DNA from: Selenomonadales bacterium
GTDB lineage: Bacteria; Bacillota; Negativicutes; Sporomusales; UBA7701
Direction: 5' to 3'
Length of the DNA: 64,000 nt
NCBI GenBank assembly: GCA_018434945.1
Contig: JAHDOI010000040.1
Location: 1-64,000 of the forward strand
The translations under genes were made by a program, and so were the position numbers. The notes under the pieces are model-generated. The model was not told where the DNA came from, ran no database searches, and saw nothing but the letters and a program-made list of their open reading frames with translations. Below are positions 1,799 through 39,780 of the stretch, in pieces. Each line of letters begins with the position of its first letter. Position 1 is the stretch's first letter.

Positions 1799-3613
1799 AT
1801 GAGAAAAGAGTTTATGCTGGGCAACGAGGCCATCGCCCGCGGGGCGGCGGAGGCGGGGGTCAGGGTTGTCGCCGGGTACCCGGGAACGCCGGCCACCGAG
1901 ATCGTCGATCTTTGCGGCGGTTACCCCGGTGTGTACGCCGAGTGGTCGGCGAACGAGAAACACGCCTTCGAGGTGGCGACCGCGGCCTCGCTGACCAACC
2001 AGCGGTCGATGGCGGTGATGAAACACAACGGCACCAACGCCGCGGCGGATTTTCTGATGCATGTGAATTTCACCGGCATCCGCGCCGGGATGGTGCTGAT
2101 AACCGCCGACGACCCGGGCGGCCTGTCGTCGCAGTGCGAGGAGGATACGCGGATTCTCGTCCATAACTACGCCCACCTGCCGATGTTCGATCCGTCGAGC
2201 GTGCAGGAGGCTTATGACATGACCAAGGCGGCGTTTGAGCTGTCGGAGAAGACGGAGCTGGTCTTCGCCCTCCGCCCGGTGATGCGCATCAATCACGCCG
2301 GCGGCATGGTGGAGTACGGCGATGTAGCTCCGCAGAGCCGCCCGGCCGAGTTCGTGATCGACCGCAAACGGTTCGTGATGTCGGCGGTGGTGGAGAAGGA
2401 ATCGGGCGGCGAGCTCAGGCCGAAGATGCGGCACCGCTGGCTGAACGCCAAGCAGGCCGAGCTGAAGGCGCTGATGGAGGATTCGCCGTTCAACCGGGTC
2501 GAGAAGGCGCCGGGCGAAGTCGGCTTTATCGGCTGCGGCATCGGCTACGCCTTTCTCAAGGAGGCGGAGCGTATCCACGGCGCGAAGCTGCCCATTCTCA
2601 AACTGTCGACCCTGCCGCTGCCGGAGGGCAAGGTGCTCGATTTTGTCCGCGGCCTGAAGAAGGTCGTGGTGTTCGAGGAAGTCGAGCCGGTGGTCGAAAA
2701 ACTGATAAAAGAGCTGTGCTTCGAGCATAAGATTGTGCTGGAGGTGCTGGGCCGCGGCGGTTATCTGCCCAGCGAGGGCGAGCTGTCGACCAACCTGGTG
2801 CTGACGGCGGTGGAGGCCGCGCTGGCCGGCAAGGATTACCCCGCCCCGGCGCAGGGCCAGTACGTTTCGGCGCGCACGCGGACCCAGTGCCCCGGCTGCA
2901 GCCACCGCGGCCTGCTTGTCGCCCTGAAGGAGGTCGTGCGCAAGAACGGCGGCGTGGTGACCGGCGATATCGGCTGCCACGACGCGGGCACGTTCGAGCC
3001 GATGAATCTGCAGGCGACCATTTACTGCATGGGATCGTCCATTCCGATGGCCTACGGCATCAAGAAGGCCGGCTTTGATAAGCCGGTGTACGCGCTGATC
3101 GGCGATTCGACCTTTTTCCACAACGGCCTCACCGGCCTGGCGAGCGCCATCTACAACGGCGCCGATATCACGGTGGTGATCGCCTACAATTCGACGACGG
3201 CGATGACGGGCTTCCAGCCCCATCCCGGCAGCGCCAATAATCTCAACCAGCCGGTGACGCCTATCGAGCCCGGCGCGGTGGCGGCGGCGATGGGCGCGAA
3301 GGTGTTCCGCTGCAATCCTTACAATGTCGAGGAGACGGCCCGGGTCATAGCCGAGGCGACGGCGGAAACCGGCGTCAAGGTGGTTGTCGCCGAGGCGCTG
3401 TGTTACCTGAAGTTCGGCCGCGAGGGCAAGATTTCTTATACGCCCCGGCAGGTGGCGGTGGATGTGGCGGTGTGCAATGGTTGCGGCCTGTGCGTGCGGA
3501 CGTTCGGCTGCCCGTCAATCACCCTGAGCGAAGGCAAGGCGGTTATCGAGCCGAGCAGCTGCAACGGCTGCGGCGTGTGCGTATCGGTATGCAAGAGGGG
3601 GGCCATAAAATGA
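1799..3613 (+). CDS. iorA: Indolepyruvate:ferredoxin oxidoreductase, alpha subunit
   Basis: A 604-residue large subunit of the thiamine-diphosphate enzyme that oxidatively decarboxylates aryl-pyruvates to aryl-acetyl-CoA, CO2 and reduced ferredoxin. An N-terminal pyrimidine-binding domain begins LGNEAIARGAAEAGVRVVAG. The TPP pyrophosphate site is GDSTFFHNGLTGLASAIYN with a downstream Asn (about residues 436-470). Two C-terminal ferredoxin motifs are visible: C559-x2-C-x2-C-x5-C-P and C588-x2-C-x2-C-x3-C. The length matches the family. The stop overlaps the iorB start (ATGA). It heads the putatively IclR-controlled operon. Substrate range is inferred. A related 2-oxoacid is possible given the acyl-CoA genes downstream. 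Confidence 0.93.
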   Translation: MRKEFMLGNEAIARGAAEAGVRVVAGYPGTPATEIVDLCGGYPGVYAEWSANEKHAFEVATAASLTNQRSMAVMKHNGTNAAADFLMHVNFTGIRAGMVLITADDPGGLSSQCEEDTRILVHNYAHLPMFDPSSVQEAYDMTKAAFELSEKTELVFALRPVMRINHAGGMVEYGDVAPQSRPAEFVIDRKRFVMSAVVEKESGGELRPKMRHRWLNAKQAELKALMEDSPFNRVEKAPGEVGFIGCGIGYAFLKEAERIHGAKLPILKLSTLPLPEGKVLDFVRGLKKVVVFEEVEPVVEKLIKELCFEHKIVLEVLGRGGYLPSEGELSTNLVLTAVEAALAGKDYPAPAQGQYVSARTRTQCPGCSHRGLLVALKEVVRKNGGVVTGDIGCHDAGTFEPMNLQATIYCMGSSIPMAYGIKKAGFDKPVYALIGDSTFFHNGLTGLASAIYNGADITVVIAYNSTTAMTGFQPHPGSANNLNQPVTPIEPGAVAAAMGAKVFRCNPYNVEETARVIAEATAETGVKVVVAEALCYLKFGREGKISYTPRQVAVDVAVCNGCGLCVRTFGCPSITLSEGKAVIEPSSCNGCGVCVSVCKRGAIK

Positions 3614-4206
3614 AGTTCGATTTAGTGATCGCCGGCGTCGGCGGCCAGGGAAACATCCTTGCTTCCCAGGTCGTCGCCAAGTGCGCGATGGATGCCGGTT
3701 ACAACGTGGTCAATACGGAGACGAAGGGCGCGGCCCAGCGCGGCGGTTCGGTGCTGTCCCACGTGCGGATCGCGGACGGCGAGATATTTTCGCCGCTGGT
3801 GCCGGCGGGCCAGGCGGACGTGCTGCTCGGATTCGAGCCGCTGGAGGCGCTGCGCTATATCGGTCTGCTGGGTAAAAAGGGCACATTCATCATCAACACG
3901 GCGCCGGTGCCGACCATCCTCGCCAATATGAAGGTGGACGAATATCCGAGCACCGAGCAGATCGTGGCGATCATCAAGGAGAAGGGGCTTGACGGCCATT
4001 TCCTGAATGCGACCAGGGCGGCCAAGGACCTCGGCAACGTGCTGCTGACGAATGTGGTGATGCTGGGAGCGTTCACGGCGGTAAGCAGCGTGCTGCAGCC
4101 CGACGTCATCCTGAAGAAGCTGCTGACGATGGTGGACGAGAAGTTTCACGCCGACGACAGCCGCGCGTTCGCGGTCGGCCGCGGCCTGATAGGCAAGGAG
4201 GGCTGA
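3610..4206 (+). CDS. iorB: Indolepyruvate:ferredoxin oxidoreductase, beta subunit
   Basis: A 198-residue gamma-domain-type subunit that pairs with IorA. It opens with the hallmark FDLVIAGVGGQGNILASQVV and contains the ETKGAAQRGGSVLSHVRI stretch typical of 2-oxoacid:ferredoxin oxidoreductase gamma domains. The start is the ATG overlapping the iorA stop, so the two are translationally coupled. It carries no Fe-S motif, as expected for the two-subunit Ior type. The next gene follows after three bases. Confidence 0.92.
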   Translation: MKFDLVIAGVGGQGNILASQVVAKCAMDAGYNVVNTETKGAAQRGGSVLSHVRIADGEIFSPLVPAGQADVLLGFEPLEALRYIGLLGKKGTFIINTAPVPTILANMKVDEYPSTEQIVAIIKEKGLDGHFLNATRAAKDLGNVLLTNVVMLGAFTAVSSVLQPDVILKKLLTMVDEKFHADDSRAFAVGRGLIGKEG

Positions 4207-8261: not shown

Positions 8262-8461
8262 AATGATGGCCACGGGAGAGACCGCGATCGCGGCGCCGAA
8301 GGAGTAAACCCTTTGTTAAACTCTCAGGCAGAAGGACCATGGCCGGACCATCCTCTGGAGAGTGCGCCGCCGGCGCCGCCGAAGGAGAACCCTCAGGGGT
8401 GAATCTCTCAGGTAAAAGGGACAGAGACAAAGGAGCGGACGCTCTTTTGCCTCTGTTTTTT
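8262..8461 (+). ncRNA. gcvT riboswitch: Tandem glycine riboswitch with terminator
   Basis: Two consecutive aptamers show the glycine-class signatures. The first holds CGGGAGAGACC, then CGCCGAAGGAGTAAACC and ACTCTCAGGCAGAAGGACC. The second holds CTGGAGAG, GCCGAAGGAGAACC and AATCTCTCAGGTAAAAGGAC. A terminator follows directly (ACAGAGACAAAGGAGC, loop, GCTCTTTTGCCTCTGT, then T6, 8421-8461). In this class glycine binding normally relieves termination, so the operon should be switched on by glycine. About 110 bases then lead to gcvT. Confidence 0.95.
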
Positions 8462-33324: not shown

Positions 33325-33447
33325 GAGGTTGTCTAAAAAGCTCCAGATGCAAGGCGCACCGGAAGAGCGCGCCGCGCCGCGTACTAAACCGTACGCAAGC
33401 AAGCGCTCTGAGGAGCAACGCCGCAGATGGACTTTTTAGGCAACCTC
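33325..33447. repeat. Dispersed hairpin repeat, copy A
   Basis: Outer arms GAGGTTGTCTAAAAAG and CTTTTTAGGCAACCTC pair with one G-T wobble. Inside lie CCAGATGCAAGGCG, a central GCGTAC-loop-GTACGC palindrome, AAGCAAGCGCTCT and CAACGCCGCAGATGG. The inner part closely matches the reverse complement of 60854-60972, and the right arm matches 63148-63288. It sits between two converging genes. Confidence 0.85.
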
Positions 33448-33449
33448 CC

Positions 33450-33842
33450 CTATTTAGGTTTATAAGGCTTGAGCTGCTGCCACTGGCTGGCGATTTGCTG
33501 GTCATACCTCCTGATGGTCGCGGTGCGTTCGTTCCGGAGGGCCTGTATGCTGCCGAGGACGTTCTGGTCGAAAGCATAGACCTTGCTTTTGGGGACGGTG
33601 ACGGGTTGGCCGTACTCTTTGAGGCGGGTGGCGGCTTTGATGTTTGTTTTGCCTTCTTTGACGACGACGGCCGGTTCGAGCATGTCGGACCCCTCGTAGC
33701 GATGGATGAGGCAGTCGGGCTGCAGGTGATCGATGACGCTCTTGCTTTCGCCTTCGAGGACGACGGGGCAGCCGCATCCCGGGCAGGCGGCCGCTTCGAG
33801 GGTCAGCCAGGAGTGACAGTTGGCGCATACGATTCCTTCCAT
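33450..33842 (-). CDS. Zinc-ribbon hypothetical protein
   Basis: A 130-residue protein. The N-terminal ribbon has CANC and CPGCGC (residues 6-26), followed by a mixed alpha/beta region and a basic, Gln-rich C-terminus (RRYDQQIASQWQQLKPYKPK). The ATG at 33842 lies five bases after GGAGGTG. A longer frame would run through the divergent T-box promoter. Function unknown, possibly a small nucleic-acid- or protein-binding factor. Confidence 0.7.
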   Translation of the reverse strand: MEGIVCANCHSWLTLEAAACPGCGCPVVLEGESKSVIDHLQPDCLIHRYEGSDMLEPAVVVKEGKTNIKAATRLKEYGQPVTVPKSKVYAFDQNVLGSIQALRNERTATIRRYDQQIASQWQQLKPYKPK

Positions 33843-33910: not shown

Positions 33911-33940
33911 TTGACAAGGGCGCGTCCGGTCTGCTATACT
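33911..33940 (+). promoter_or_regulatory. Sigma-A promoter of the Trp T-box operon
   Basis: TTGACA (33911-33916) and TATACT (33935-33940) are separated by 18 bases. This near-consensus promoter drives the first T-box leader. Confidence 0.85.
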
Positions 33941-33946
33941 CATACC

Positions 33947-34235
33947 AAAATACATATATTAACATCGATGACCAGGAAGAGTACACATGGCAAGAGGGTC
34001 ACAGCGAGCCAACGGTAGTGGGAGTTTGGCACTGCTCGACATGTCGAATGGGCCTGGGAGATACGGTCCGAGCCGCAGCCGCGGGGTAGGCGCCGTCGGG
34101 ATCTTCCCCCGTTAAGAGGAAGCGGGTATCGGAGTTTTGGCTCCCGTACCATGTTAAGCTGGGCCGCTTCTGCGGCCAATTAGGGTGGCACCGCGGGTTA
34201 ACCCCTCGTCCCTTCACCGGGACGTGGGGTTTTTA
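33947..34235 (+). ncRNA. T-box: T-box leader 1, tryptophan-specific
   Basis: Stem I contains the AGTA element, CAGCGAGCC and, in the specifier loop, CGAATGGGCC with TGG (Trp codon) at 34049-34051. The antiterminator holds AGGGTGGCACCGCGGG (34182-34197), whose TGGC bulge fits a tRNA ending GCCA, as tRNA-Trp of Firmicutes does. The terminator is ACCCCTCGTCCC, loop, GGGACGTGGGGTTTTT (34200-34235). Uncharged tRNA-Trp should allow transcription of ecfA1-A2-T. Confidence 0.93.
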
Positions 34236-34259
34236 TATTTTCAGCGAGGAGGTTTGGCG

Positions 34260-35132
34260 ATGGCGGCGATTGTGTTCGATAATTTCAGTTACTCATACGA
34301 CGGCGCCGCGAAAGCGCTGGACGGCGTCGACCTTACCGTGGCCCGGGGCTCGTTTACCGTTGTGGCCGGACCGAGCGGCGCCGGGAAGACGACGCTGTGT
34401 TTTGCGGCGTGCGGCGTTGTGCCTCATTATTTCGGCGGCAGCATGGCGGGCCGCGTTAGTGTGGCGGGGGTCGCGACCGCCGGCAGTAGCATGCGGGAAC
34501 TCGCCGTCAATGTGGGCACGGTGCTCGAGGACTTTGAGAGCCAACTTGTGACGATGACGGTGGCCGAAGAGGTCGCCTTCGCGCTTGAAAATCGCGGCGT
34601 CGGGCACGACAGGATAGCCCGCCGGATCGGCGAGGTGCTGGCCCAGGTGGGGCTGGCGGGGCTGGAGGACCGGGAGGTCGGCTCGCTGTCGGGCGGGCAG
34701 AAGCAGCGTCTGGCGATCGCTTCGGTGCTGGCGACGCGCCCGGAAATCCTCGTGCTTGACGAGCCGGCTTCGGCTCTCGACCCGGAAGGGGCGGAGGAGC
34801 TTTACGCCCTCCTGGCTTCTCTCAACCGCGAGTACGGCATGACGCTGCTGGTGGTGGAGCACGACCTGGCACGGGTGCTGGCTTATGCCGATAACCTGTT
34901 GGTGCTGGCCGACGGACGGATAGCCTGTCAGGGGCGACCCGAGGAGGTGCTGCCGGTGCTCGCCCGCAGTGAGGAGCTGGCGGCGATGGTGCCGCCGCTT
35001 TGGCAGCTCAAGTTTGGCCTGGAGGAGCGGTTCGAAACCAGGTTCGCCCCCTGGCGGCACGAGGGCGAGGCGATCGAGGAACTGGGCGGCTTTATCGGCG
35101 CCGGCCGCAGGGAGGATACGAAAAGTGCTTGA
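34260..35132 (+). CDS. ecfA1: ECF transporter ATP-binding subunit A1
   Basis: A 290-residue ABC ATPase. Walker A is AGPSGAGKTTLC, the Q-loop lies near VLEDFESQLVT, the signature is LSGGQKQRLAIAS, and Walker B is ILVLDEPASALD with VVEHDLARVL after it. It energises uptake through EcfT and an S component. The ATG follows GAGGAGG, 25 bases after the T-box terminator. It overlaps the next gene by eight bases. Confidence 0.93.
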   Translation: MAAIVFDNFSYSYDGAAKALDGVDLTVARGSFTVVAGPSGAGKTTLCFAACGVVPHYFGGSMAGRVSVAGVATAGSSMRELAVNVGTVLEDFESQLVTMTVAEEVAFALENRGVGHDRIARRIGEVLAQVGLAGLEDREVGSLSGGQKQRLAIASVLATRPEILVLDEPASALDPEGAEELYALLASLNREYGMTLLVVEHDLARVLAYADNLLVLADGRIACQGRPEEVLPVLARSEELAAMVPPLWQLKFGLEERFETRFAPWRHEGEAIEELGGFIGAGRREDTKSA

Positions 35133-35949
35133 GATTGACAATGTCAGTTATTGTTATAAGGCTGGCCAATATGCCGTCCATGGCGTAAGCCTGACGGTGG
35201 CGGACGGCGAATTCGTCGCCATCGCCGGCCGCAACGGCAGCGGCAAGACGACCCTGACCCGCCTGGTGATGGGGCTGCTGCGGCCGACGGCAGGCACGAT
35301 ATTGCTGGACGGACGCGCGACAGCCGGGACGGCGACGGCGGCGATCGCCCGCCAGGTGGGCTATGTTTTCCAGAATCCCGACAGGCAGATATTCCGCGAT
35401 TCGGTGGCCGAAGAAGCGGCCTATGGCCCCGAGCAGCTCGGCTTCGCCGCCGCCGAAATCCGCGACGCGGTCGCCTCGGCCCTGGAGGCCACCGGACTCG
35501 CCGCCATGGCCGCCGCTTACCCGCGGACGCTGTCCAAAGGGCAGAAGCAGCGCCTGGCGATCGCCTCGGCGCTCGCCCTGTCGCCCCGCCTGCTGATTCT
35601 CGACGAGCCGACCAGCGGCCAGGATGCCCGCGAGAAGGCGGCGCTGATGGAGCTGCTGACCGGGCTGAACACCCAGGGCACGGCGATACTGCTGGTGACG
35701 CATGATATGGAGCTGCTGGCCCGCTACGCGCGGCGGGCGGTGGTGATGACCGCCGGCCGGGTGGTTTTCGATGGCGGCGTGCGCGAATTGTTCGCCGGCG
35801 ACACCGATGTGGGCGCCTGGGGCCTCCGCGAGCCGGCGGCGGCGCGGGTGGCAAGAGGGCTGAGGGATTGCGGCGTGGCGCCGGGGCCGCTTGTGCCGGA
35901 GGAACTGAACGGCGAGATCGCCGTGGCGAGGAGGGAACTTTATGCGTAA
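35125..35949 (+). CDS. ecfA2: ECF transporter ATP-binding subunit A2
   Basis: A 274-residue ABC ATPase with Walker A IAGRNGSGKTTLTR, GYVFQNPDRQIFRDSVAEEA (the EcfA-type Q-loop region), signature LSKGQKQRLAIAS (Lys instead of the second Gly) and Walker B LLILDEPTSGQD. GTG start overlapping ecfA1. It forms the heterodimeric motor with EcfA1. Confidence 0.93.
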   Translation: MLEIDNVSYCYKAGQYAVHGVSLTVADGEFVAIAGRNGSGKTTLTRLVMGLLRPTAGTILLDGRATAGTATAAIARQVGYVFQNPDRQIFRDSVAEEAAYGPEQLGFAAAEIRDAVASALEATGLAAMAAAYPRTLSKGQKQRLAIASALALSPRLLILDEPTSGQDAREKAALMELLTGLNTQGTAILLVTHDMELLARYARRAVVMTAGRVVFDGGVRELFAGDTDVGAWGLREPAAARVARGLRDCGVAPGPLVPEELNGEIAVARRELYA

Positions 35950-36622
35950 AACAGCGCCCCTGACGAAAATAGTGATGGTTTTCCTCGTATCGCTGTGGGC
36001 GATGCTCCTGGATTCGGCGGCTGCCCTGGCGCTGCTGACGGCCGCGCTGGTGGCATTGTTCGCCTTGTCGAAGGCGCCGGCCGCCAGCTACAAGGCTCTG
36101 GGCAGCCTGGGGATTTTTGCCGCGGGGCTGACGGCAATGCAGTTCGCCCTGGGCGCCGAGGCGGAGTTTTCGGCGGTGGTCGGCCTGCGCATGGCGATGA
36201 TGACCGGCCTGTTCATCCTCCTGATGGCCACCACCCGCATCCAGGACCTAACCGCCGCGCTTGTCCGGCAGCTGCGCGTTCCCTACGAATACGCCTTCAT
36301 GGTTACGGCTTCGCTGCGCTTCGTCCCCGACCTGCTGGCCGAGGTCAAGGCGGTGCAGGAGGCCCAGGCCTGCCGGGGTTACTCCAACCGGGGGAGCGTT
36401 GCGCGACGGCTGAGAAACTACCTGACGATCGTTCAGCCGCTGGTGCTGCGGTCGGTGACCCGCTCGGAAACGATGGCGATGAGCCTGGAGCTCAGGGGTT
36501 TCGGCGCCAATCGCGCCGGGGGTTACGGCACCAGCATCGCTTTCGGCTACCGCGACTACCTGGCGCTGGCCGCCCTGGCGGCAGGCACGGCGATGATCGT
36601 GGCGATGAGATTTTATCGGTAG
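35942..36622 (+). CDS. ecfT: ECF transporter transmembrane subunit EcfT
   Basis: A 226-residue membrane protein with about five spans. It carries the two short coupling-helix motifs ACRGYSNRG and LELRGFGAN (the X-R-G pattern) that contact the ATPases. The ATG overlaps the ecfA2 end. It scaffolds the ATPases and an S component, here presumably TrpP encoded after the second T-box. Confidence 0.92.
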   Translation: MRKTAPLTKIVMVFLVSLWAMLLDSAAALALLTAALVALFALSKAPAASYKALGSLGIFAAGLTAMQFALGAEAEFSAVVGLRMAMMTGLFILLMATTRIQDLTAALVRQLRVPYEYAFMVTASLRFVPDLLAEVKAVQEAQACRGYSNRGSVARRLRNYLTIVQPLVLRSVTRSETMAMSLELRGFGANRAGGYGTSIAFGYRDYLALAALAAGTAMIVAMRFYR

Positions 36623-36644
36623 ATTATTTCTTTAGACAGCCGAG

Positions 36645-36918
36645 AATATGCGAAGTCGGTGAACGGGAATAGTACCCATGCAAGAGAGTCTCAGCGAGCC
36701 AACGATGGTGTGAGGTTGGCACAGCTCGGCATGGCGAATGGACCCGGGAGACACGGCCCGAGCCGCGAAAGCGGGGTAGGAACCGTCGGCATTCCCCCGT
36801 TAACGGGAAACGGATAGCGGCGCGTCGCGCCGCATCCGGAAGAGTGAGCCGCACTGCGGCTAACTTGGGTGGCACCACGGGCAGAAGACCCGTCCCTGGC
36901 TGGGGACGGGTCTTTTTA
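36645..36918 (+). ncRNA. T-box: T-box leader 2, tryptophan-specific
   Basis: A second full T-box lies between ecfT and trpP. It has AGTA in stem I, CAGCGAGCC, and the specifier region CGAATGGACC with TGG at 36739-36741. TGGGTGGCACCACGGG (36866-36881) has the same TGGC acceptor bulge, and the terminator is AGACCCGTCCC, loop, GGGGACGGGTCTTTTT. I see no good promoter between ecfT and this leader, so it may act as a second gate on readthrough from the first promoter. Confidence 0.93.
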
Positions 36919-36951: not shown

Positions 36952-37536
36952 ATGGAAAAACGAGACAATCAGGAAATGATCCGCGTGGCGAAGACGGGGG
37001 GCAATACAAGGGGAGTGGCGGTTATCGCGCTGCTGCTGGCCATCGGCGTCATTCTGCGGCTCGTCAGCCCGAGTATAGCGGGCATCACCCCGAACTGGAT
37101 GATCGCCATGTACTGTCTGGCCATCCTCATCGTGCGGCCCGGGCTCAAGCAGTCCGCCGGCATCGGCCTGGTGGCCGGCGTGGTCTGCATGGCAACCTCC
37201 AAAGCGATCTTCCCCTACGCCAATCTCATCAGCGAACCGGTCGGCGCGGTGGCCTGCGCCCTGGTTGTCGGCCTCGCGGACCGTCTCAGGGTCTTCGGTC
37301 TTACCCTGATGCCGGCGGTCAGCACCTTCATCGGCACCCTCGTCAGCGGCTTCGTCTTCATCACCATCACCAAGTTCGCGATGAACATCCCGATGCAGGT
37401 TTACCTATACGGCATGCTGCCGGTGGTGCTGACGGTGGGGGCGGTTAACTGCGTCGTCGCCCAGGCCCTCTATTACCCGGCAGTGAAGCTGTTCACAGGC
37501 AAAACGGCCGTCGTCGCAAAGGAGGAGAAAGTATGA
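36952..37536 (+). CDS. trpP: Tryptophan-specific ECF substrate-binding protein TrpP
   Basis: A 194-residue membrane protein with about five or six spans (GVAVIALLLAIGVILRLVSP, ITPNWMIAMYCLAILIV, LISEPVGAVACALVVGLADR). Length and layout fit the TrpP family. Identification is supported strongly by the Trp T-box directly upstream and the EcfA1A2T motor just before it. The ribosome site is GGGAGGAG. The stop overlaps the paaK start (ATGA). Confidence 0.88.
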   Translation: MEKRDNQEMIRVAKTGGNTRGVAVIALLLAIGVILRLVSPSIAGITPNWMIAMYCLAILIVRPGLKQSAGIGLVAGVVCMATSKAIFPYANLISEPVGAVACALVVGLADRLRVFGLTLMPAVSTFIGTLVSGFVFITITKFAMNIPMQVYLYGMLPVVLTVGAVNCVVAQALYYPAVKLFTGKTAVVAKEEKV

Positions 37537-38831
37537 TCTGGAACCATACGATGGAACAGAGCAGCCGTTCGCAGATCGAGGAGCTGCAGCTCCTCCGCCT
37601 GCGCGAGGTTGTCGGGAGAACATATCATAACGTGCCGGCCTACCGCGCCAAGATGGCGGCGAAAGGGGTCAAGCCGGACGATATCCGCACCCTCGCCGAT
37701 ATCGACAAACTGCCATTCACCACCAAGCAGGATATGCGCGACGCCTACCCCTACGGGATGCTGGCCGTGCCGATGAAACAGATCGTCAGGGTGCACTGCT
37801 CCAGCGGCACCACCGGCAGGCCGACCGTTGTCGCCTATACCCGCCACGATCTTGCGATTTGGGCCGAGGTGCTGGCCAGGACGCTGGTGGCCGGCGGGCT
37901 AACGGACAGCTCGGTTTTCCAGGTGGCGGTCAATTACGGGCTGTTCACCGGCGGCCTCGGCTTCCATTACGCCGCCGAACTTGTGGGCGCCTCGGTCGTG
38001 CCGATATCGGGCGGCAACACGGCCCGTCAGGTCATGCTGATGAAGGATTTCGGCACGACGGCGATGATCATCACCCCGTCCTATTCGCTGCATCTGGCCG
38101 AGACGATGCGGGAAATGGGCGTCAAGCCCGAGGAAACGGCGCTGCAGTCGATCTTCTGCGGGGCGGAGACGTGGTCCGACCGCATGCACGACCAGGTCGA
38201 GGAGACTTACGGCGTCAAGGCGTTCGACGTATACGGCCTGAGCGAGGTCATCGGGCCGGGGGTGGCGTGCGAATGCTCCGCCCACGATGGCCTCCACATC
38301 CAGGAGGATCATTTCTACACCGAGATCATCGACCCGGAAAGCGGCGAAGTGCTGCCTGACGGGGAGAAGGGCGAGGTGGTTATCACTACGCTGACCAAAG
38401 AAGGCATGCCGATGATCCGCTACCGCACCCGCGACCTGTCCGCCCTGCGGCGGGACCGGTGCGCCTGCGGCCGGACCCAAACCCGCATGGAACGGGTGCT
38501 CGGACGGAGCGACGACATGCTCATCATCCGCGGCGTCAACGTCTTCCCCTCGCAGGTCGAGGATGTCCTCCTCAGCCTTGGTGAAACCGCGCCCCACTAC
38601 CAGCTGCTGGTCGAGCGGGAAGGCAGCCTCGACAAGCTCACCGTTCTTGTCGAGAAGGCCAACGGCCTGGTCGACGGCCCGCCCGAAGCGGTGCGCGCCG
38701 CCGAGCACAAGGTCCAGGAACGGATGAAGGCTGCCACCGGCCTCAGCCCGCTGGTGCGGCTCGTGCCCCCGAAGACGATCGAGCGCAGCGAGGGCAAGGC
38801 CAAGCGGGTCATCGACAAACGGGCCATGTAA
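37533..38831 (+). CDS. paaK: Phenylacetate/aryl-acetate-CoA ligase
   Basis: A 432-residue adenylate-forming ligase. The AMP-binding motif is CSSGTTGRPTVVAYTRHDL. YGLSEVIGPGVACEC and MIRYRTRDLSALR follow, and the C-terminal domain has MLIIRGVNVFPSQVEDVLL. It makes aryl-acetyl-CoA from phenyl- or indole-acetate with ATP and CoA, and such enzymes are paired with IorAB in anaerobes. It is translationally coupled to trpP and so lies under tryptophan T-box control, which points to a role in tryptophan supply. The ribosome site GGAGGAG lies inside the end of trpP. Confidence 0.93.
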   Translation: MIWNHTMEQSSRSQIEELQLLRLREVVGRTYHNVPAYRAKMAAKGVKPDDIRTLADIDKLPFTTKQDMRDAYPYGMLAVPMKQIVRVHCSSGTTGRPTVVAYTRHDLAIWAEVLARTLVAGGLTDSSVFQVAVNYGLFTGGLGFHYAAELVGASVVPISGGNTARQVMLMKDFGTTAMIITPSYSLHLAETMREMGVKPEETALQSIFCGAETWSDRMHDQVEETYGVKAFDVYGLSEVIGPGVACECSAHDGLHIQEDHFYTEIIDPESGEVLPDGEKGEVVITTLTKEGMPMIRYRTRDLSALRRDRCACGRTQTRMERVLGRSDDMLIIRGVNVFPSQVEDVLLSLGETAPHYQLLVEREGSLDKLTVLVEKANGLVDGPPEAVRAAEHKVQERMKAATGLSPLVRLVPPKTIERSEGKAKRVIDKRAM

Positions 38832-39030
38832 AGCCCGCGCTCTCGCAGGGGAAACGGCGAAGGAACAATATGTGTTTTTGTTGGCCTTGTGCGGTAAGCA
38901 CAGGGTCTTCTTGTTTTGTGCGGCGGGTTTTTCATGGAGGAGGTGTTCCCGCTGACGGAGAAATATACCGATGGATGCCGTGGCCTGAGCGTTTTGCCAG
39001 CTGCCGGCGCCAGATAGCGCGGAGGGTCGG
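38832..39030. other. Intergenic region after paaK
   Basis: A weak hairpin (CCTTGTGC with GCACAGGG, then TCTTCTTGTTTT, 38884-38916) may terminate the trpP-paaK transcript. A 27-codon frame at 38934-39017 lacks a ribosome site and is not called. Confidence 0.45.
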
Positions 39031-39780
39031 GTGAGAAAAGTGATAGACTTATCTGTTTTTGGGCGGTTCGGCTTCGATTATCAGCCCGTTGGCGTGAAAT
39101 TTCTTTTGACAAAACCGGACGGACTGGAGCGGCTCAATAAAAAAGCGGCCTTCTGCCAGATGCTGAAAGAGGCGCAGGACGGGGGCGCTTTCTATGCGGC
39201 GAAGGAAGAGCACGAGTGCAAGGTGGGGCCGGTACTCCTGGGCATGGAAAAACCCGATCCGGTCTTTGAAAGCGGTATGATCGGCCCTAAGCTGGGAGTA
39301 TACGAAGACGCCAGGGCAAACAGAAGGATTTACGATAAGATGTCGCGGCTGGCGGCGGGCAGTGTCAACTACGTGGCCTTCGCGCCTCTGCCCGGCCTGT
39401 CCTTTGACCCCGACCTGCTGATCGTTACCGCCAGGCCCAGCCAGGCGGAGATCGTACTGAGGGCTGCGGGTTATAAGACCGGGGCGGGGTGGAACGCTAG
39501 GGGGACGACGGTGGCCGGGTGCGCGTGGCTGTATATGCACCCTTACGTTCACGGCGAAATAAACCTGATGGTAACCGGGCTGCACCACGGCATGAAGGCC
39601 CGGAACCTCTTCCCGGAAGGGCTGCTGCTCTTGTCGCTCCCCTTTGACGTGCTGCCCGGCCTTGTGGACAGCCTCAACACAATGAAGTGGGATCTGCCGC
39701 AGTACCGTTCCACCCCGGAAGAGCATGCGGCAAGGATGAGGAGAATCGCGGAAGAAGTTAGGCGGGATCTGGAAAAGTAA
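39031..39780 (+). CDS. DUF169-family protein
   Basis: A 249-residue protein matching the DUF169 pattern. PVGVKFLLTKPDGLERL is followed by FCQMLKEAQDGGAFYAAKEEHECKVGP with two conserved cysteines, then GTTVAGCAWLYMHPYVHGEINLM. The family occurs in methanogens and anaerobic Firmicutes and has no established function; metal or cofactor binding by the cysteines is a guess. A GTG start follows GGAGGG. Monocistronic. Confidence 0.85.
   Translation: MRKVIDLSVFGRFGFDYQPVGVKFLLTKPDGLERLNKKAAFCQMLKEAQDGGAFYAAKEEHECKVGPVLLGMEKPDPVFESGMIGPKLGVYEDARANRRIYDKMSRLAAGSVNYVAFAPLPGLSFDPDLLIVTARPSQAEIVLRAAGYKTGAGWNARGTTVAGCAWLYMHPYVHGEINLMVTGLHHGMKARNLFPEGLLLLSLPFDVLPGLVDSLNTMKWDLPQYRSTPEEHAARMRRIAEEVRRDLEK

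Follow-up and report, generated by a model that had tools for sequence, protein, structure and literature searches.

The locus studied here raises the question of whether two tryptophan T-boxes, placed before different genes of one ECF transporter operon, act in series on a single transcript. It lies in the window, by which we mean the whole 64,000-nt stretch of Selenomonadales DNA that was analyzed. Judged by its sequence, the locus is a putative single operon for a tryptophan-type importer with two separate tryptophan-starvation switches, present in a small group of anaerobes. The gene order is promoter, T-box 1, ecfA1A2T, T-box 2, trpP, and paaK (Table 1), and the encoded proteins include the domains that define an ECF transporter, i.e., PF00005 twice, PF02361, and PF17099 (Pfam). 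The first-pass annotation had described two tryptophan T-boxes in series, one before the motor genes and one before the S component, and both Rfam and the gene order bear this out.

Table 1. Features of the two-leader operon (positions in the window)
Feature	Position	Strand	Evidence or remark
Sigma-A type operon promoter, TTGACA-N18-TATACT	33911..33940	+	11/12 consensus matches; hexamers invariant in five genus species
T-box leader 1 (tRNA-Trp)	33959..34216	+	Rfam RF00230, 104 bits
Leader 1 specifier UGG; bulge UGGC	34049-34051; 34186-34189	+	
Leader 1 intrinsic terminator	34200..34234	+	-22.7 kcal/mol
ecfA1, ECF transporter ATPase	34260..35132	+	PF00005; best NCBIfam TIGR04520, under equivalog cut-off
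ecfA2, second ECF ATPase, GTG start	35125..35949	+	PF00005; best NCBIfam TIGR04521, under equivalog cut-off
ecfT, transmembrane coupling protein	35942..36622	+	PF02361 (CbiQ/EcfT), 77 bits; TrpP-linked EcfT clade
T-box leader 2 (tRNA-Trp)	36650..36900	+	Rfam RF00230, 94.9 bits
Leader 2 specifier UGG; bulge UGGC	36739-36741; 36870-36873	+	
Leader 2 intrinsic terminator	36885..36917	+	13-pair hairpin and U run, -24.2 kcal/mol
trpP, TrpP-family S component	36952..37536	+	PF17099, 48 bits vs cut-off 27.2
paaK-like aryl-CoA ligase, overlapping trpP stop	37533..38831	+	TIGR02155, 559 bits; PF14535
Terminator-like hairpin 3' of paaK, probable operon end	38883..38907	+	

Several features were seen around the operon. 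A gene for a DUF169 protein (window 39031-39780) lies 3' of it in 4/5 genus species. A palindromic repeat of about 120-140 bases (window 33325-33450, and the spacer before leader 2 in L080 and L081) occurs near T-boxes and between genes, and is also found 3' of several T-box terminators in the source genome. An ordinary glycine riboswitch aptamer is located upstream of a gcvT-like gene (window 8263-8349).

Both leaders match the same tRNA

With 104 and 94.9 bits, both leaders exceeded the gathering score of RF00230, which is 93 bits. The specifier has the context GAA-UGG-purine in each of them, and the T-box sequence is followed by an intrinsic terminator, as in transcription-attenuating T-boxes. 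The source genome contains two tRNA-Trp genes, both with the anticodon CCA and the discriminator G (G73) and both ending in ...CCCCUG-CCA. Because the tRNA end is GCCA, the UGGC bulge pairs with it perfectly, and, with the anticodon CCA and the discriminator G, both leader contacts are of the Watson-Crick type. Hence, the earlier reading of TGG and an identical TGGC acceptor bulge in both leaders stands, and the same tRNA-Trp is matched twice. Recognition of a different tRNA by one of the leaders is ruled out by the presence of UGG and UGGC in both. A tryptophan T-box with this UGG/UGGC pair has been mutationally tested in Streptococcus suis (PMC9382623).

Some other T-boxes of the source genome differ in the bulge or in the architecture. 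UGGU, which would form a wobble pair with G73, was found in the tryptophan T-boxes of the trpD operon and of a trpB-like gene (L007, L008, and L010; contig C82). The difference between UGGU in the trp operon leaders (L208-L215 in G001-G004) and UGGC in the transporter leaders was present in 5/5 genus species, and it could represent a tuning of sensitivity. The T-box leader of a serA-like gene (L019, C54:19225-19420) has another T-box motif and a terminator no more than about 80 bases after it, with no obvious second stem I.

The arrangement is conserved and contains one recognizable promoter

The order of the elements as well as the specifiers and bulges of both leaders are kept in 5/5 compared species of the genus, i.e., the source and four others. 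Because the order recurs in all four other species, the two-leader arrangement is not due to chance. In these four species, leader 1 scored 101-109 bits and leader 2 scored 90-105 bits, with leader 2 of G001 (90.3 bits) slightly below the Rfam cut-off. The parts of leader 2 that read the tRNA (UGG, UGGC, and the stem I core) are invariant in the five species. Its alignment contains six pairs with compensatory changes, which, from five related sequences, are modest evidence alone. The spacer in front of leader 2 is not conserved but differs between species, and a palindromic repeat is inserted into it in G003 and G004.

The sole strong promoter match on the plus strand over the operon is the one at 33911-33940 (11/12). 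Leader 2 begins about 28 nt past the ecfT stop codon in the window, and in 5/5 genus species no sigma-A promoter above chance was found before it; the best matches (6-7/12) were equalled by 64-88 of 100 shuffles. Of 60 further leaders of the class that were scored, 58 had a promoter match of 10-11/12 (some loci counted twice); the remaining two (L097 and L178) represent a single Sporomusa malonica locus. A plus-strand match of at least 9/12 was also not found inside ecfT. The first-pass annotation had noted no clear promoter between the leaders, and the sigma-A scan before leader 2 indeed gave nothing above chance in all five species. Because there is no promoter match before leader 2, and none of at least 9/12 within ecfT, expression of trpP-paaK most likely depends on readthrough from the upstream promoter. 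Leader 2 could conceivably be served by a promoter for a different sigma factor or by a weak one within ecfT.

If leader 2 had its own promoter of an unrecognized type, the locus would comprise two independent, abutting units with T-boxes acting in parallel. The trpP-paaK leaders of relatives do have promoters of their own, and the repeat inserted into the spacer of two species could carry one. However, no sigma-A match rises above chance in the five species, whereas the promoter of leader 1 is invariant; the spacer is just 28 nt long in the window and not conserved, and ecfT lacks plus-strand matches of at least 9/12. We therefore regard parallel units as unlikely. Alternatively, leader 2 could be a relic that is redundant under the shared promoter and drifts without any distinct regulation. 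Its branch in the leader tree is longer than that of leader 1, and the G001 copy falls just below the Rfam cut-off, but the functional positions, the terminator, and the compensatory pairs are retained throughout the genus, and a terminator without antitermination would block trpP. A relic thus appears very improbable. It is even harder to credit, and in our view extremely improbable, that leader 2 is mainly a processing or 3'-end element that sets a constitutive stoichiometry of motor to S component without tRNA sensing. Owing to its high stability (-24.2 kcal/mol), the terminator of leader 2 would be able to end the motor mRNA, but the invariance of UGG, UGGC, and the stem I core in five species argues against this function being the main one.

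Evidence for a dedicated motor

The source genome contains seven EcfT genes. The EcfT of the operon forms a single clade (99/98) with EcfTs that are encoded in T-box>trpP>ecfA1A2T operons by other Negativicutes. The six others lie outside this TrpP-linked clade; the paralogue branches are very long, and the order among the paralogues is unsure. One of them (L026), which belongs to a separate module at a ribosomal-protein locus, adjoins genes identified by eye as truA and rplM, and the truA/rplM neighborhood is the usual place of the shared ECF module. In addition, several Negativicutes encode TrpP and an EcfA1-type ATPase as one fused open frame of about 430-570 codons (L103, L104, L105, L108, L125, L127, L130, L132, L133, L135, and L136). 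Because the EcfT tree, the gene order in relatives, and the TrpP-EcfA fusions agree, a motor that is dedicated to the TrpP system, co-inherited with it, and distinct from the shared module is well supported by these comparisons, as the first-pass annotation had suggested for the EcfT module. The EcfT tree and the gene order speak against a motor common to vitamin S components. Elsewhere in the source genome, an ECF module was duplicated recently, leaving two near-identical EcfT genes with similar neighbors (L028 and L029; contigs C39 and C62).

Origin of the two-leader operon

The commonest layout in relatives is T-box>trpP>ecfA1A2T, and in Sporomusa-type genomes T-box>trpP2>paaK is often present as an additional operon. 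In some of them (S. ovata, S. silvacetica, S. acidovorans, and strain KB1), the motor operon is T-box>ecfA1A2T and lacks trpP, which is located in a T-box>trpP operon of its own. In eight Sporomusa-type genomes, the motor operon is followed on its own strand, at a distance of 8-45 kb, by a paaK-type or solo trpP operon. A trpP remnant, the C-terminal 25 codons, was detected between the T-box and ecfA1 in G016 (L206, minus strand; E 1.6e-10).

In the TrpP tree, the TrpPs of the window genus are in one set with the paaK-linked TrpPs of Sporomusa and with solo TrpPs (98/99), a set that also includes two motor-linked TrpPs of another family (f2). This tree is compatible with the joining of two operons. 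In the leader tree, leader 2 is nearest to leader 1 and not with the paaK-type leaders (99/95), and because of this grouping the tree favors a leader duplication over joining; the joining topology was not rejected (p-AU 0.118). An arrival of leader 2 together with trpP-paaK is accordingly not what the leader tree prefers, and the tree is not decisive. The most likely origin, judged from these comparisons, is that neighboring T-box>trpP1>ecfA1A2T and T-box>trpP2>paaK operons were joined, whereby trpP1 and the second promoter would have been lost and the second T-box kept. Alternatively, leader 2 may stem from duplication or conversion of a leader.

Proposed mechanism of serial gating

We consider it probable that a single promoter and two T-boxes in series gate a dedicated ECF importer, and that this operon arose by joining. 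Transcription from the promoter at 33911 would yield a polycistronic mRNA for the importer. T-box 1 would terminate it unless bound by uncharged tRNA-Trp, thereby gating ecfA1A2T, and the complete T-box 2 on the same transcript would gate trpP-paaK. With two T-boxes on one transcript, RNA polymerase would therefore have to be antiterminated twice to reach trpP-paaK. If p1 and p2 are the antitermination probabilities of the two leaders, the output of the motor would be proportional to p1, and that of the S component and the ligase to p1 times p2. At equal p, the ratio of motor to trpP-paaK is arithmetically 10 to 1 at a p of 0.1 and 1.1 to 1 at a p of 0.9. Thus, the motor would be made at milder starvation than the S component and the ligase, which would be kept below the motor until charging of tRNA-Trp is poor and would respond more steeply; the first-pass annotation had made a similar proposal. 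The motor mRNA would, in addition, end at the terminator of leader 2. Cotranscription, the different thresholds, and the steepness are plausible in view of this architecture.

The paaK-like ligase

The paaK-like protein is, by its domains, kin to aryl-CoA ligases. It is an AMP-binding enzyme with a PaaK-type C-terminal domain (Pfam), and PaaK is its nearest NCBIfam model, but it failed the PaaK equivalog test (TIGR02155; 559 bits vs the cut-off of 646). The transported substrate and the role of the ligase can be proposed from the sequences. In a salvage route, the S component would import an acid like indole-3-acetate, the ligase would convert it into the CoA ester, and an indolepyruvate oxidoreductase would carboxylate it towards tryptophan. 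Genes similar to iorA and iorB (window 1799-4206), followed by genes of acyl-CoA metabolism, are possible partners of the ligase, and an iorA-like gene is present in 5/5 genus species. However, the trpP-paaK-containing relatives G011 and G016 lack an iorA-like gene at E 1e-100, which weakens the salvage reading; a necessary partnership of iorAB with trpP-paaK is not general. We regard this route as highly doubtful. If it were true, the second T-box would delay a costly route until starvation is severe.

Comparison with known systems

Tandem T-boxes of the contiguous type are well documented, most of all for tryptophan synthesis, and a pseudo-cooperative action is expected of them; a survey counted pairs solely if they were in one intergenic region (PMC12452182). 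The tandem trp, thrS, and ilv T-boxes of Bacillota resemble leaders 1 and 2 in having two complete T-boxes for one tRNA with their own terminators, but they share a single intergenic region and control one set of genes (PMC12452182). Here, ecfA1, ecfA2, and ecfT lie in between, so that leaders 1 and 2 are outside the contiguous class and the number of gates would differ between the genes. The source genome also contains a contiguous tandem T-box pair before a trpD-like gene. T-boxes split by genes within one operon look new; older T-box surveys may hold earlier cases. In the literature searched, the term "internal riboswitch" was not found together with T-box.

The T-box>trpP>ecfA1A2T operons of Anaerospora, Lucifera, Sporomusa, and others share the motor clade, a TrpP-family S component, and the UGG specifier with the operon of the window, but these Negativicutes operons have one T-box, the S component comes first, and a ligase is lacking. 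In other bacteria, TrpP has already been proposed to be an S component of ECF transporters that is controlled by a T-box. The T-box>trpP>paaK operons of the Sporomusa type (L086, L091, L092, L094, and L096) likewise have the S component and the ligase behind a UGG/UGGC T-box, but they have their own promoter and are not joined to a motor. The T-box of S. suis trpX also combines a UGG specifier and a UGGC bulge with a tryptophan transporter; in contrast to the operon described here, trpXYZ is an uptake system with a substrate-binding protein and a single leader (PMC9382623). Neither a TrpP-family importer paired with an aryl-CoA ligase under tryptophan control nor a T-box together with a phenylacetate-CoA ligase was found in the literature searched.

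The operon ties a TrpP-family importer to a predicted aryl-CoA ligase under putative tryptophan control. Because the single-gated genes on the same transcript would be an internal control, it is a natural test of tandem T-box behavior, for which the relatives supply single-gated versions for comparison. If readthrough occurs, one amino-acid signal would be converted into two graded outputs per mRNA.
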